The notes under the pieces were generated by a model, which worked only from the letters and a program-made list of their open reading frames with translations, searched no databases and had not been told where the DNA came from. A DNA stretch of 64,000 nucleotides from Micromonospora peucetia (GTDB lineage Bacteria > Actinomycetota > Actinomycetes > Mycobacteriales > Micromonosporaceae), in assembly GCF_900091625.1 (NCBI RefSeq), contig NZ_FMIC01000002.1, positions 1,240,001 through 1,304,000 of the forward strand, given 5' to 3'. The translations under genes and the position numbers were made by a program. Below are positions 9,236-54,585 of the stretch, in pieces (position 1 is the first letter of the stretch; each line of letters begins with the position of its first letter).

Positions 9236-9852
9236 GGCGGTGTCGCTCCTCTGGTGGCGGGCCGGCCCGGGGCCGGCACGGTGAACTTCGGGATGAGGTG
9301 GTGCGCCAGCGGCCCGATGCTGACGGCGAAGAGGAGGGTGCCGGGGCCGACGGTGCCGCCGAGTGCCCAGCCCAGCGCGAGCACGCCGAGCTCGATGGCC
9401 GTGCGTACCCGCCCGATCGGCAGGCCGCGGGAGGCCAGCCCGGTCATCAGTCCGTCGCGCGGCCCGGGCCCGAGGCGCGCACCGAGGTAGAGGGCCGTGG
9501 CGAGCCCGTTGAGCAGGATGCCGGCGACCAGCAGGCCGATCCGGCCGGAGACGGGGGTCACGGGCGGCAGGACGGCAAGCGTGGCATCGGCGGTGACCCC
9601 GACCACCACAGCGTTCGCGAGGGTGCCGAACCCGGGTCGCTGCCGCAGCGGGATCCAGAGCAGCAGCACGACCACGGCGACCAGGTTCACCACCTGACCG
9701 AGGGGCAGCCCGGTCCGCTCGGCGAGCCCCTGGTGCAGCACGTCCCAGGAGGCGAGGCCCAGGTCGGCGCGGACCATCAGGGCCACGCTGACGCCGAACA
9801 GCACGAGGCCGGCCAGCAGGCGGGACAGCCGGCCCGGCAATCTGGTTGACAT
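9223..9852 (-). CDS. YczE/YitT-like multipass membrane protein
   Basis: A 209-residue integral membrane protein with about five to six hydrophobic segments and the YczE-family pattern LGLASWDVLHQGLAE after TM1, then GPGPRDGLMTGLA in a central loop. YczE-type proteins have no settled function; some sit next to MarR or GntR regulators. The ATG at 9852 lies inside the operator repeat and only 7 nt after a TAGGGT -10 box (9865-9860), suggesting a leaderless or nearly leaderless message; a GTG at 9861 is in frame but would fall inside the promoter. Confidence 0.82.
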   Translation of the reverse strand: MSTRLPGRLSRLLAGLVLFGVSVALMVRADLGLASWDVLHQGLAERTGLPLGQVVNLVAVVVLLLWIPLRQRPGFGTLANAVVVGVTADATLAVLPPVTPVSGRIGLLVAGILLNGLATALYLGARLGPGPRDGLMTGLASRGLPIGRVRTAIELGVLALGWALGGTVGPGTLLFAVSIGPLAHHLIPKFTVPAPGRPATRGATPPCPA

Positions 9853-9895
9853 GTCACCCACCCTAGGAACTGAATTGATGACATGTCAACCAGAT
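9840..9895. promoter_or_regulatory. Symmetric MarR operators with divergent promoters
   Basis: The 17-mer ATCTGGTTGACATGTCA (9840-9856) is repeated exactly in reverse complement as TGACATGTCAACCAGAT (9879-9895); each contains the 10-bp palindrome TGACATGTCA. Overlaid on them are two promoters: minus strand TTGACA (9889-9884), 18 nt, TAGGGT (9865-9860); plus strand TTGATG (9875-9880), 18 nt, TAGGGT (9899-9904). A dimeric MarR protein bound at these sites would block both. Autoregulation of marR and control of the yczE operon follow by inference. Confidence 0.82.
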
Positions 9896-9911
9896 GGCTA
9901 GGGTGGTCGGC

Positions 9912-16187: not shown

Positions 16188-17468
16188 TCAGCCGATCCGC
16201 TCGATCACCAGCTGCGTCGTGGCGGGCGCGACCGGCGAGATCCGCACCGCCCGCGCGGCGTCGTCCCGCGCCGCCGGAAGCCGGGCGGCGTCGTCCGTGC
16301 GCAGTTCGTAGATCGGGTCGCCGGCCCGCACCGGGTCGCCCGGACGCCGGTGCAGCACGACCCCCGCCGGCACGCTGACCGGGTCCTCCTTGCGGGCCCG
16401 CCCGGCGCCGAGCCGCCACGCGGCCACCCCGATGGCGTACGCGTCGACCGCCGCGACGAAGCCGTCCGCGTCCGCGCGGACCACCTCGACCTCCTTCGCG
16501 ACGGGCATCGGGGCGTCCGGGTCCCCGCCCTGGGCGCGGATCATCGCCCGCCAGGAGTCCATCGCCCGGCCGTCACGCAGGGCGGCCTCCGGGTCGGCGT
16601 CCGGCAGCCCGGCCGCGTCGAGCATCTCGCGGGCCAGTGCCAGGGTCAGCTCGACCACGTCGGCGGGGCCGCCCCCGGCGAGCACCTCGACGGACTCGGT
16701 CACCTCGACGGCGTTGCCGATGGCCAGGCCGAGCGGGGTGGACATGTCGGTGAGCAGGGCGACGGTACGCACGCCGTGCGCGCCGCCCAGCTCGACCATC
16801 GTCCGGGCCAGCTCGCGGGCCTGCTCGACGGACTTCATGAACGCGCCGGAGCCGACCTTCACGTCGAGCACCAGCGCACCGGTGCCCTCGGCGATCTTCT
16901 TGCTCATGATCGAACTGGCGATCAGCGGGATGGCCTCGACGGTCCCGGTCACGTCACGCAGCGCGTACAGCTTGCGGTCGGCGGGGGCGAGGCCCGCGCC
17001 GGCCGCGCAGATCACCGCGCCGACGTCGCGGAGCTGGGCGGTGAACTCGTCGTTGCTCAGCGCCGCCCGCCAGCCGGGAATCGACTCCAGCTTGTCCAGC
17101 GTGCCGCCGGTGTGTCCGAGGCCCCGGCCGCTGAGCTGTGGCACGGCGGCGCCGCAGGCGGCGACCAACGGGGTGAGCGGCAGGGTGATCTTGTCGCCGA
17201 CGCCACCGGTGGAGTGCTTGTCGACGGTCGGCCGGTCGACGGCGGAGAGGTCGAGCCGCTCCCCGCTGGCGATCATCGCGGCGGTCCACCGGGCGATCTC
17301 CGGCCCGGTCATGCCGCGCAGCAGGATCGCCATGGCCAGCGCCGACATCTGCTCGTCGGCGACCATCCCCCGGGTGTACGCGTCCACCACCCAGTCGATC
17401 TGCGCGTCGGAGAGCACTCCCCCGTCCCGCTTCACCCGAATAACATCAACCGCCGCAAACCCACTCAT
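16188..17468 (-). CDS. deoA: Thymidine / pyrimidine-nucleoside phosphorylase
   Basis: A 426-residue glycosyltransferase that splits thymidine or deoxyuridine with phosphate into base and deoxyribose-1-phosphate. The N-terminus MSGFAAVDVIRVKRDGG and the phosphate-binding signature DKHSTGGVGDK (near residue 80) are diagnostic, as are SGRGLGHTGGTLDKLESIPG near 115 and the LDVKVGSGAFMK segment near 190. The ATG at 17468 gives the standard length; AGGAAG lies upstream. It follows the cytidine deaminase gene, so imported cytidine or deoxycytidine can be deaminated and then cleaved. A 74-bp hairpin element lies between the two genes. Confidence 0.95.
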   Translation of the reverse strand: MSGFAAVDVIRVKRDGGVLSDAQIDWVVDAYTRGMVADEQMSALAMAILLRGMTGPEIARWTAAMIASGERLDLSAVDRPTVDKHSTGGVGDKITLPLTPLVAACGAAVPQLSGRGLGHTGGTLDKLESIPGWRAALSNDEFTAQLRDVGAVICAAGAGLAPADRKLYALRDVTGTVEAIPLIASSIMSKKIAEGTGALVLDVKVGSGAFMKSVEQARELARTMVELGGAHGVRTVALLTDMSTPLGLAIGNAVEVTESVEVLAGGGPADVVELTLALAREMLDAAGLPDADPEAALRDGRAMDSWRAMIRAQGGDPDAPMPVAKEVEVVRADADGFVAAVDAYAIGVAAWRLGAGRARKEDPVSVPAGVVLHRRPGDPVRAGDPIYELRTDDAARLPAARDDAARAVRISPVAPATTQLVIERIG

Positions 17469-17522: not shown

Positions 17523-17596
17523 GGGGATGGGCCGACCGTGCCCGGCGGAGGGATCAAGCCTGACCGCCCGGAGCCGGGCACGGTCGGCCCATCCCC
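17523..17596 (-). repeat. 74-bp constant-loop hairpin element, copy 1
   Basis: Arms 17523-17546 and 17573-17596 are perfect 24-bp reverse complements (left arm begins GGGGATGGGCC). The 26-nt loop (17547-17572) contains GGATCAAGCCTGACCGCCC. The element starts 5 nt after the cytidine deaminase stop and ends about 55 nt before the deoA start in transcription sense. Copy 2 (53922-53995) has the same arm and loop lengths and the same loop apart from one base, but different arms. A partial terminator or an RNA regulatory or stability element between operon genes is possible. Confidence 0.9.
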
Positions 17597-17601
17597 CAAG
17601 C

Positions 17602-18306
17602 TCAACCCGCCCAGCGAACCGGAATCTCCATCGGCGGCTCACCCTCGCCGGCCCAGAAGATGCCGCCGGCCGCGTCCACGACCACCACCCGGGGCGTACG
17701 GGCCAGGCCCCAGGCAATCGCCTCCGCCGGGTCACCCCAGCTCGGACCCTCCTCCAGCACGCCGGTCTCGGCGTCCTCGCTGTCGCCCGCGGACCGCTCC
17801 CAGTAGGCCGTCCAGACCTGCTGGCCGGCGGAGAGGTCGGGGTGCGCGAAGACCGTGCCGCGCCCACGCCAGGCGGCCAGCCGCTCCGGCACCACGGGCA
17901 CCGGGGCCTCCCCGGTCACGGCCTCCAGGTCGGTCACGTCGAAGGCGTGCGGCAGCAGCTCGGCCATCCGCAGCGGCCCGCCCCTGGCCTCGATCAGGCA
18001 CTCCGGGCCACCCTGCTCCCAGAGCAGCTGACGGCACCGGCCGCACGGCATCAGCGGCTCGCCGGTGGCGTCGACGCAGGACAGGGCCACGATCCGGCCA
18101 CCGCCGGTGGCGTGCAGCGAGGAGACCACCCCGCACTCGGCGCAGAGCACCACGCCGTACGCGGCGTTCTCCACGTTGCAGCCGACCACCACCCGGCCGT
18201 CGTCGACCAGGGCGGCGGCCCCGACCGGGAATTTCGAGTACGGCACGTACGCGTGCCGCATCACCTCGGTGGCGGCGGCCCGCAGCCGCTCCCAGTCGAT
18301 CTCCAT
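17602..18306 (-). CDS. cdd: Cytidine deaminase with an extra C-terminal domain
   Basis: Residues 1-130 form a standard zinc cytidine deaminase that converts cytidine and deoxycytidine to uridine and deoxyuridine: PYSKFPVGAAA (22-32), NVENAAYG, the catalytic C55-A-E57, and zinc ligands C88 and C91 in MPCGRCRQLLW. Homotetrameric enzymes of this type are normally about 130-140 residues. Here the frame runs on for about 104 more, a Trp- and acid-rich tail (WRGRGTVFAHPDL, QQVWTAYWERSAG, IFWAGEGEPPMEIPV) that I cannot assign. No frameshift or low complexity is apparent. Fifth gene of the nucleoside operon, between the ABC permease and deoA. Confidence 0.92.
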   Translation of the reverse strand: MEIDWERLRAAATEVMRHAYVPYSKFPVGAAALVDDGRVVVGCNVENAAYGVVLCAECGVVSSLHATGGGRIVALSCVDATGEPLMPCGRCRQLLWEQGGPECLIEARGGPLRMAELLPHAFDVTDLEAVTGEAPVPVVPERLAAWRGRGTVFAHPDLSAGQQVWTAYWERSAGDSEDAETGVLEEGPSWGDPAEAIAWGLARTPRVVVVDAAGGIFWAGEGEPPMEIPVRWAG

Positions 18307-53290: not shown

Positions 53291-53767
53291 TCAGCGGCTG
53301 TGGGCGTCGGAGACCGGGTGGTGCCGGCGGCGCCGCTCCTCCTCGGCGTGCTCGTCGGTGCCGACCTTGTCGTACAGGCCGGTGCCGAGCAGGAGCAGGC
53401 CGAAGAACATCGACACGACGACGGTGGACATCGAGAAGTTGAGGAAGTTGGCGTCGGTCTGGAGCACGGACATCATGAGGATGCTGGTGGCCAGGAAGAC
53501 GACCCCGGCGGTCAGGTTCATGTGGTGACCGAGGTTGCCGCGCCGGGACGCCCCGACGATGAGCACGATCCCGAAGGCGACGGAGATCAGCGAGAAGGCC
53601 AGGTTGGTGCGGAGCCCGAGGGCCCAGTTGCTGCCCCGGTCGAAGAGCGGGTCGCCCCACGTCAGGGCGACGCCCCAGACCCCGAAGACCAGGATGTAGA
53701 GCCCCACCAGGCCGGCGAGGACCCGGTAGACCGGCCGTGCCGGATGGTTCACGGGAAAGTGCGGCAT
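53291..53767 (-). CDS. DUF4383 membrane protein, paralogue 1
   Basis: A 158-residue protein with four helices. It opens PVNHPARPVYRVLAGLVGLY, the DUF4383 hallmark, and ends with an acidic and Arg-rich cytosolic tail (DKVGTDEHAEEERRRRHH). GGAGGGG lies before ATG 53767. Function unknown. A second paralogue lies immediately upstream; the two share MxHxPVNHPARPVYR and a YxKVGTD end. Confidence 0.85.
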   Translation of the reverse strand: MPHFPVNHPARPVYRVLAGLVGLYILVFGVWGVALTWGDPLFDRGSNWALGLRTNLAFSLISVAFGIVLIVGASRRGNLGHHMNLTAGVVFLATSILMMSVLQTDANFLNFSMSTVVVSMFFGLLLLGTGLYDKVGTDEHAEEERRRRHHPVSDAHSR

Positions 53768-53921: not shown

Positions 53922-53995
53922 GGTTGTCGCCGGAGCCCGACCCGCGCAGGGATCAAGCCTGACCGCCCGGAGCGGGTCGGGCTCCGGCGACAACC
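53922..53995 (-). repeat. 74-bp constant-loop hairpin element, copy 2
   Basis: Arms 53922-53945 and 53972-53995 are perfect 24-bp reverse complements (left arm begins GGTTGTCGCC). The 26-nt loop differs from copy 1 at one base only and again holds GGATCAAGCCTGACCGCCC. The arms match copy 1 at 13 of 24 positions, and all 11 changed positions are changed on both arms. It lies 21 nt after the stop of DUF4383 paralogue 2 and upstream of paralogue 1, in the same orientation as copy 1 relative to transcription. Confidence 0.92.
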
Positions 53996-54016: not shown

Positions 54017-54472
54017 TCAGAGTACGAGCCGGGCCTTCTGCCAGGCGTCCTGCTCCGCGTCCGTGCCGACCTTGCCGTACATGCCGACCATCAGCAGGAC
54101 CAGGCTGACCACCATCAGCACGATGACCGTGAAGATGCTGAAGTTGAAGATGTTGGCCTCGGTCTGGATGAAGGCGAGACCGGCGAGGCTGATCACCATG
54201 ATGACGTACGCCAGCCACTGGTTGACCATGACGTCGATGTTGCGACCGATCGCGGTGCCGGCCAGCACCGCGGCCCCCAGCAGGACGCTGACCAGTGAGA
54301 ACCCGAGGTTCGTGCCCTGGCCGAGGATCGCGGTGTCATCCTGGGCGAAGACCTCGTCGCCGACGCTCGCGATGATGCCGAGCACGCCGAAGGCCACCAG
54401 GTACAGACCGGTCAGCCCGCCGATCGCCCGGTAGACCGGCCGCGCGGGGTGATTGACGGGGGTGTGGGCCAT
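54017..54472 (-). CDS. DUF4383 membrane protein, paralogue 2
   Basis: A 151-residue four-helix protein starting MAHTPVNHPARPVYRAIGGL, with GTNLGFSLVSVLLGAAVL and QTEANIFNFSIFTVIVLMVV in the membrane. GGAG lies 8 nt before ATG 54472. It is the upstream member of a tandem pair; the products are clearly related but diverged in the loops and tail. Function unknown. Confidence 0.85.
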   Translation of the reverse strand: MAHTPVNHPARPVYRAIGGLTGLYLVAFGVLGIIASVGDEVFAQDDTAILGQGTNLGFSLVSVLLGAAVLAGTAIGRNIDVMVNQWLAYVIMVISLAGLAFIQTEANIFNFSIFTVIVLMVVSLVLLMVGMYGKVGTDAEQDAWQKARLVL

Positions 54473-54585
54473 GTCTGAGTCTCCAACGCCGTTCGGTTGA
54501 GGGGTCGCGGACGATTGTCCCGCACGTCGAAGTGTGACGCCGCACACGGGGGCCTCCCGGTGCGGCGCCGCGACGACGGGATGGC

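Follow-up and report, generated by a model that had tools for sequence, protein, structure and literature searches.

A dispersed hairpin element of Micromonosporaceae with a near-invariant loop and varying, paired arms

Described palindromic repeats and the two copies in the window

REPs keep the sequence of their arms and of a foot (GTAG) and are tied to a Y1 transposase, the family that mobilises them. The hairpin element of Micromonospora peucetia considered here is likewise short and dispersed, lies mainly after genes and within operons, occurs in several copies per genome and carries no reading frame of its own, and in this sense it is a dispersed extragenic palindrome like those of REP and REP-RAYT systems. 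It differs from them in that its arms vary while its loop is constant, in that no foot tetranucleotide is conserved, and in that Y1_Tnp (PF01797) does not track it. Prokaryotic MITEs are comparable in being small and non-autonomous and in having terminal inverted repeats able to form a hairpin. In MITEs these repeats are the recognition sites of a transposase, whereas the arms of the present element have no fixed sequence and a target-site duplication was not found; an empty/filled comparison at the gap downstream of cdd revealed that element-less alleles exist, with insertion and deletion being indistinguishable there. The attC sites are imperfect palindromes next to stop codons, of which the bottom strand folds, and they conserve outer core sites and vary the loop. 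The present element has the reverse arrangement, with a constant loop, a variable outer stem and no conserved outer core sites.

Two further systems were compared. RPEs of Rickettsia are described as about 150 bp long, with conserved encoded peptides, and as lying in frame within unrelated metabolic genes (PMC10969869). The element resembles them in being in frame at two sites of one methyltransferase gene, but it is 74 bp long, mostly intergenic and conserved in its loop at the nucleotide level, with drifting arms. Hairpins maintained by template switching share with it the compensatory changes and the inversion of the loop in place; template switching is a mutational mechanism rather than an element family (PMC8794818), and a near-invariant loop in many dispersed copies is left unexplained by it.

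The window, a stretch of 64,000 nucleotides of the M. peucetia genome, contains two copies (Table 1). We denote as R the strand on which the element was first described (20-nt loop core GGGATCAAGCCTGACCGCCC) and as S its complement (GGGCGGTCAGGCTTGATCCC). Recomputation reproduced exactly the geometry given in the first-pass annotation, with 24-bp arms, a 26-nt spacer and perfect pairing within each copy; the loops agree at 25 of 26 positions and the arms at 13 of 24 on each side, so that all 11 changed positions are changed on both sides. As also claimed there, both copies follow a minus-strand gene directly and precede the next one. In the whole window, 24-nt arms around a 26-nt spacer with at most four arm mismatches are confined to these two 74-mers, and both have none; in a control with complementation but no reversal, no 74-mer had fewer than six. 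The 19-nt loop core occurs twice in the window versus 0.05 times expected from shuffles, and folding z-scores range from -7.5 to -8.6 for both copies and both strands. A run of T 3' of the stem is absent in both window copies. A separate inverted repeat with GTTGACATGTCA, arms of 19-22 bp and differing spacers recurs at 9837-9898 of the window and at two fetched loci (L153 1144-1195, L155 6288-6338), and is perhaps an operator or another repeat family.

Table 1. Positions of the two elements and of their neighbouring genes in the window
Feature	Position	Strand	Basis
Element 1, arm, 5' side on R, 24 nt	17523..17546		exact reverse complement of 17573-17596
Element 1, constant 26-nt loop	17547..17572	+	R reads GGAGGGATCAAGCCTGACCGCCCGGA; 25/26 identical to element 2
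Element 1, second arm, 24 nt	17573..17596		recomputed, perfectly complementary
Element 2, arm, 5' side on R, 24 nt	53922..53945		recomputed
Element 2, constant 26-nt loop	53946..53971	+	recomputed
Element 2, second arm, 24 nt	53972..53995		recomputed
cdd, cytidine deaminase gene	17602..18306	-	ORF; Pfam dCMP_cyt_deam; stop codon 5 nt from element 1
deoA, pyrimidine-nucleoside (thymidine) phosphorylase gene, next after element 1, same direction	16188..17468	-	ORF; Pfam Glycos_transf_3 and PYNP_C
DUF4383-like gene before element 2	54017..54475	-	ORF; Pfam DUF4383 24.6 bits, just below the 27-bit cut-off
DUF4383 gene after element 2, same direction	53291..53767	-	ORF; Pfam DUF4383 49.3 bits

Family size, stem and loop

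In the complete M. peucetia genome (7.37 Mb), a search allowing up to three mismatches in the 19-nt core gave 12 matches: eight exact and one with a single mismatch, all nine with arms, and three with three mismatches and without arms. The genome thus holds nine copies of the element; the first-pass annotation could see only the window pair, and this number, the placement within a coding gene, the loop flips and the uneven stem mismatches described below lay beyond its reach. With at most one mismatch, 21 of 41 genomes matched, including 20 of the 25 of the genus (M. peucetia included; 1-12 copies each) and one of 16 from other families of the order. The search of other Micromonosporaceae proposed with the first description found, at up to two mismatches, matches in 67 of 150 family genomes and 25 of 44 genera; the reversed pattern hit 10 of the same 150 genomes, with one match each, and many of the two-mismatch family matches lack arms. 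The element is rare elsewhere in the phylum. A pattern search with at most one mismatch found it in two of 396 phylum genomes, both of the genus, and a covariance-model search of 296 phylum genomes, with 16 candidates scored per genome, in the genus only; neither sample included the known copies outside the family, so that the element should not be taken as wholly absent beyond it. Micromonospora, Actinoplanes, Plantactinospora, Catenuloplanes, Hamadaea and others were among the matches listed in a contig scan of at least 120 stretches, and, outside the family, the listed matches included Trueperella bonasi and an Actinomycetaceae MAG. Plasmid and phage records contained no match over 80% of the element, and IMG/VR a single loop match without stem.

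Pooling of the loci gave 279 candidates with at most three mismatches, of which 19 with fewer than 12 Watson-Crick arm pairs were dropped; the 260 kept fall into 99 locus clusters by flank similarity. Many loci are common to several species, reflecting inheritance at the same locus, and arms are similar between some different loci. Several unusual copies were seen. The one of T. bonasi (L051 2956-3145) has an imperfect stem and lies 12 nt before a TPP riboswitch, which is followed by a gene for a substrate-binding protein, as read from the translation. Downstream of clpC in a member of another family of the order (L310 9783-10320), units of about 235 bp contain degenerate copies of the element and also a second inverted repeat (GGTCCTGCC...GGCAGGACC). 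An array of units made of one arm and the loop is present at L123 1850-2420; units without the second arm mostly have changed loops (one is exact), and the two-armed unit has the exact loop. In Actinoplanes aureus (L066, about 640-1520), two similar copies with similar flanks lie in inverted orientation 725 bp apart, which suggests a duplication that included the flanks.

The first-pass annotation knew of no named element with this design, and none was found in Rfam or in the openly available literature. No Rfam family matched the element above its gathering threshold in the window or in 11 loci, and a known Rfam family was therefore rejected as its identity; at relaxed thresholds, matches over element 1 were far below the gathering scores and mostly microRNA hairpins. 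Searches of openly available papers (subscription papers aside) gave no account of this loop or of such repeats in these genera, and literature matches to the loop string concern unrelated bacteria. Skipping-rope RNA, considered by name only, would be a possible parallel to the element.

Among 157 elements collected by loop alone, whatever their stem, the Watson-Crick fraction lies between 0.83 and 0.97 at the 23 pairs nearest the loop; it falls to 0.73 at pair 24 and to 0.25 at the next position outward, and this drop indicates a stem length fixed at 24 bp. In a control with shuffled partners (one shuffle), the fraction was 0.30-0.55 at 17 of 24 positions, so that the flanking complementarity is well above random. 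Of 143 elements, 129 had at least 18 paired positions, and from these a set of 49 was selected for mutual diversity. In this set, changes on both sides affect 23 of the 24 pairs of the stem; none of 500 shuffles reached either the pairing or the covariation score, and slid controls were also exceeded. Only columns 20, 21, 24 and 51 of the stem (alignment A1) are at least 90% conserved, all near the loop end, and the outer stem varies. From one locus or lineage to another the arms are very different, and rather than occurring with one arm sequence only, the loop was found with many unrelated arms.

As searches with an exact pattern select for an intact loop, loop conservation was also sampled by host gene. 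Here the 20-nt core was exact in 51 of 54 loops and had one mismatch in the other three. The cdd-deoA gap was examined in 30 instances, the best for the Cdd protein out of 61 genomes: 16 held an exact loop and one a loop with one mismatch, 12 had no loop and one was a contig end; three of the 12 loopless gaps keep arm remnants, which points to deletion as the cause of part of the absences. In 29 ORFs of a methyltransferase, from 30 loci of 61 genomes, 35 loops were exact and two had one mismatch (site 1: 19 exact, one with one mismatch and inverted, nine without; site 2: 16 exact, one with one mismatch, 12 without); the query protein carried both elements, which favours element-bearing genomes. 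Loops with two to five mismatches were found in neither the cdd-gap nor the methyltransferase set, and a given locus has the element whole, partly deleted or not at all, instead of in drifted form. Among 20 mismatched family matches elsewhere, at least 17 paired arm positions accompany nine of ten one-mismatch and three of ten two-mismatch loops.

Among the 63 listed hairpins that do not belong to the family, no other hairpin with a constant loop was noticed, apart from variants of the element itself. Repeated hairpins of other kinds at these loci keep their arms constant and vary in a short loop; one of this opposite design, with near-constant arms (GCTGGCCGGCACCC / GGGTGCCGGCCAGC), was seen at L132 1467-1514, L093 564-609, L142 1963-2007, L061 2564-2607, L126 2250-2293 and L149 6129-6167. 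A pairing between loop and flank of the element (GTCAGG with CCTGAC on R) was noticed and then dropped; the 24-bp stem lies between the two.

Placement, strand asymmetry and loop flips

Gene calls from a home-made gene finder place S in the direction of the nearer or both genes in 62 of the 99 clusters and against them in 13; of the remainder, 16 are at a locus edge, five inside predicted genes and three between divergent genes. Forty-five of the 99 lie between convergent genes. Of 75 clusters with a measured distance between the stem and the upstream stop codon in the S sense, 47 have it at 48 nt or less and 28 at 60-219 nt. The upstream genes listed for 34 of the 99 clusters have no obvious common function and include, by translation, those for aldehyde dehydrogenase, type III pantothenate kinase, DNA polymerase I, rpoB, rho, 6-phosphofructokinase and clpC, in addition to the Pfam-tested cytidine deaminase and DUF4383 genes. 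In three genomes the element lies between rpoB and rpoC, as named from the translations. Intrinsic terminators combine a GC-rich hairpin with a T-tract; in the 99 locus representatives this T-tract is absent (A 0.07, C 0.29, G 0.38 and T 0.25 in the first 10 nt of the sense 3' flank), and the copies between rpoB and rpoC and in frame within a coding gene do not have the position of a terminator either. The sense 3' flanks of the representatives are poor in A (0.07-0.13) and rich in T (0.18-0.25), versus 0.15 and 0.15-0.16 after other genes. In 24 of the 99, GTGGTC is present no more than 25 nt from the stem (1.6 expected), and flanks are shared among Actinoplanes copies.

The coding copies lie in a gene of the genus with the Pfam domain Methyltransf_28, which can have the element in frame at one or both of two sites; the gene reads along S at site 1 and along R at site 2, and L005, among the nine copies of M. 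peucetia, occupies site 2. They keep the same loop with paired arm changes, and the encoded residues often shift in step (GEPTR...RVGSPET, GEPAR...RAGSPET), although unpaired intermediates (GEPTR...RAGSPET) are common. With two sites in one gene and five of 99 clusters inside a predicted gene, in-frame placement is not a general habit of the element.

The mismatches of the stem are distributed unevenly between the strands. At pairs 5-24 from the outside, 241 of the 260 elements (those with at least 19 Watson-Crick pairs) have 21 G-U versus 90 A-C mismatches on S. As distinct events of locus, position and type at pairs 4-24, 23 G-U were counted versus 74 A-C (p = 2e-7), in counts that share ancestry and were made off-tree, with the outer pairs left out after the data had been seen; all 24 pairs together give 50 versus 87 events (p = 0.002), and the outermost pair is reversed (20 G-U, 6 A-C distinct events). 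Since A-C on S is G-T or G-U on R, wobble is tolerated on R. The asymmetry is strongest near the loop (pairs 13-21), with pairs 18 and 19 alone making up 23 of the 67 A-C events of pairs 5-24. Ordinary hairpins at the same loci, which serve as a positive control, behave in the opposite way: 142 others located after stop codons in the fetched loci and the window have 54 G-U and 25 A-C on the mRNA strand. A matching transition bias was not seen in the near flanks (G>A 0.20-0.31 and C>T 0.38-0.39 per site; T>C about equal to A>G), and flanks at 80-300 nt gave G>A 0.158, C>T 0.165, T>C 0.183 and A>G 0.127; the excess of G>T over C>A in the stems is common to the flanks. The asymmetry persists where S reads against both genes (1 G-U versus 7 A-C events) and is also present where both neighbours read along S (9 versus 25 distinct events). 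Within the methyltransferase gene it amounts to 3 G-U versus 12 A-C at site 1 and to 3 versus 3 at site 2. The RNA of S folds 4-5 kcal/mol better than that of R, and the inner hairpin of S has a G-U pair in 49 of 49 sequences and another in 43 of 49, which would suit the strand opposite R and thus speaks against R. Judged from the mismatches, the folded strand under selection is probably R, in most cases the antisense strand of the adjacent gene.

Comparison between species revealed four loci at which the loop is turned round in place and the arms are the same or similar (31 pairs), the two loop orientations being represented by 2 versus 1, 1 versus 1, 18 versus 1 and 10 versus 1 elements. Flanks were compared in opposite orientation and both were required to be adjacent; an unfiltered list of 203 pairs had mixed the two methyltransferase sites. 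Two of the flip loci (L004 and L007) are copies of the M. peucetia genome itself. Monttinen and Loytynoja report inversion of a loop in place as a rare footprint of template switching, and compensation together with loop inversion as its strongest support (PMC8794818).

Across 570 orthologous pairs, a set without those that have fewer than 20 paired positions or no usable upstream gene, the mean fourfold divergence is 0.283 and the per-site divergence 0.156 in the stem and 0.003 in the loop core, the last value being biased by the loop-based sampling. In view of the first two values, faster-than-neutral evolution of the stems was discarded as an idea. One-sided changes reach a plateau at about 1.5-2 per 24 pairs, and two-sided changes rise to 6.8 in the most diverged class. 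In the 50 pairs below 0.15 divergence the two-sided changes are clumped (39 pairs with none, 11 with one to six; variance 3.4, mean 0.86), three of the four sixes involving the same sequence (L104). Nineteen of the 22 orthologous pairs below 0.1 fourfold divergence have no two-sided change, and the other three, with six each, all involve L104. As close pairs differ mostly on one side, most change appears to be stepwise, as under selection, and changes of several pairs in one step come from few cases.

Explanations for the constant loop and the matched arms

The fixed size, the near-invariant loop, the varying paired arms, the placement mostly after stop codons, the in-frame copies, the shared loci, the absences and the flips are direct observations. 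We prefer, and give an even chance to, an explanation that combines several processes, namely a dispersed palindromic element similar to REPs and RPEs, whose arms would be matched by template switching together with selection on one folded strand, and whose loop would be read by a putative factor. The element itself would be a non-autonomous palindromic DNA of Micromonosporaceae, composed of two inverted arms of 24 nt and a near-invariant loop of 26 nt. A polymerase that switches template between the arms of the palindrome may copy one arm from the other, by which complementarity would be kept largely at the DNA level, and the same switching may now and then invert the loop. In addition, the R-strand hairpin (GGGATCAAGCCTGACCGCCC) would be selected as a folded single strand, and its loop would be the recognition site of a candidate trans-acting factor and hence not drift. 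The copies presumably spread by a past process similar to transposition; this step from dispersed to transposed is suggested by the similar arms at different loci and by the tandem array.

Loop and pairing are kept in any context, including coding sequence in both orientations, and a DNA element therefore fits better than an mRNA device. The loop flips and some clumped changes argue for template switching, the wobble for selection on a folded strand, probably R, and the constancy of the loop for a factor that recognises it. Both processes offered in the first-pass annotation are retained in this more specific form: the option that a folded RNA or single-stranded DNA is selected and its loop recognised agrees with the near-invariant loop and the wobble asymmetry (site 2 and the outer pairs being exceptions), and copying of one arm from the other agrees with the in-place loop inversions at four loci. 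Counting against the combined explanation, template switching does not account for the conserved loop, no trans-acting factor was found, the flips number only four, and neither excision nor target-site duplication nor recent transposition was demonstrated at the loci compared. More tentatively, the element may stand for a class that is defined by its loop: a factor would read the loop on one extruded strand, template switching would continually rewrite the arms, which would carry hardly any sequence information, so that the shape and not the sequence is kept and the loop sometimes flips, and loss of the whole element would be tolerated but drift of the loop would not. We hold this joint claim to be possible but doubtful.

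An RNA of the sense strand could explain the data if it formed a hairpin in the 3' UTR and either ended transcription or shielded the mRNA from its 3' side, with a loop bound by a conserved RNA-binding protein and ordinary RNA compensation in the stem. The orientation bias of S (62 versus 13 of 99 clusters), the proximity of stop codons (within 48 nt in 47 of 75) and the very stable S RNA with its inner hairpin fit this, but copies are present between rpoB and rpoC, and others, with the same loop conservation, in frame in a coding gene, which makes a 3'-UTR function unlikely. On account of these copies and the missing T-tracts, a terminator or 3'-UTR regulator was rejected as the general reading; furthermore, G-U on S is depleted relative to A-C in pairs 5-24, the reverse of ordinary 3' hairpins, and the upstream genes share no obvious function. 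A sense-strand RNA is thus an unlikely explanation overall. If the RNA was instead transcribed from R, by convergent or antisense transcription, and after folding used its loop to act either like a small RNA or by blocking antisense reading of the gene, the direction of the wobble asymmetry would be accounted for, as would the 45 of 99 clusters between convergent genes, where R is the 3' side of the transcript of the second gene. Against such an antisense RNA, which we regard as very unlikely, the asymmetry (9 versus 25) is found also where both neighbours read along S and no gene transcript carries R, the coding copies have both orientations, and the wobble exceptions at site 2 and the outer pairs apply here too.

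The least probable of the readings considered is an active mobile element of the HUH/REP-RAYT or integron attC type, in which the folded strand would be the substrate of a recombinase and conservation would reflect continuing mobility. By analogy, a folded bottom strand and a position after stop codons may recall attC sites, and the sporadic copies in Trueperella, the Actinomycetaceae MAG and another family of the order, the tandem array and the shared flanks of the Actinoplanes copies point in the same direction. Most stem columns, however, have no constant sequence, unlike attC core sites, many loci are common across species, and plasmid and phage records gave no match spanning 80% of the element. 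Y1_Tnp (PF01797) is present in 41 of the 150 family genomes but absent from the element-rich G003, G051, G067, G370 and G377, and a HUH/Y1 transposase was rejected as partner, as it does not co-occur with the element in these 150 genomes.

Compensatory changes in a stem are usually taken as proof of an RNA structure, and here the same signal occurs within coding sequence. The mismatches favour the strand opposite to most neighbouring mRNAs and are found alongside loop flips, which makes the element a natural case for separating RNA selection from template switching in DNA; with many orthologous copies and the divergence of the neighbouring genes at hand, the relative rates of both can be tested. 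The direction of wobble may also serve more generally to tell which strand of a hairpin is selected. A 20-nt loop that is near-invariant in an element that is itself often absent as a whole predicts a factor that recognises it, and the loop could be used directly to fish for this factor.
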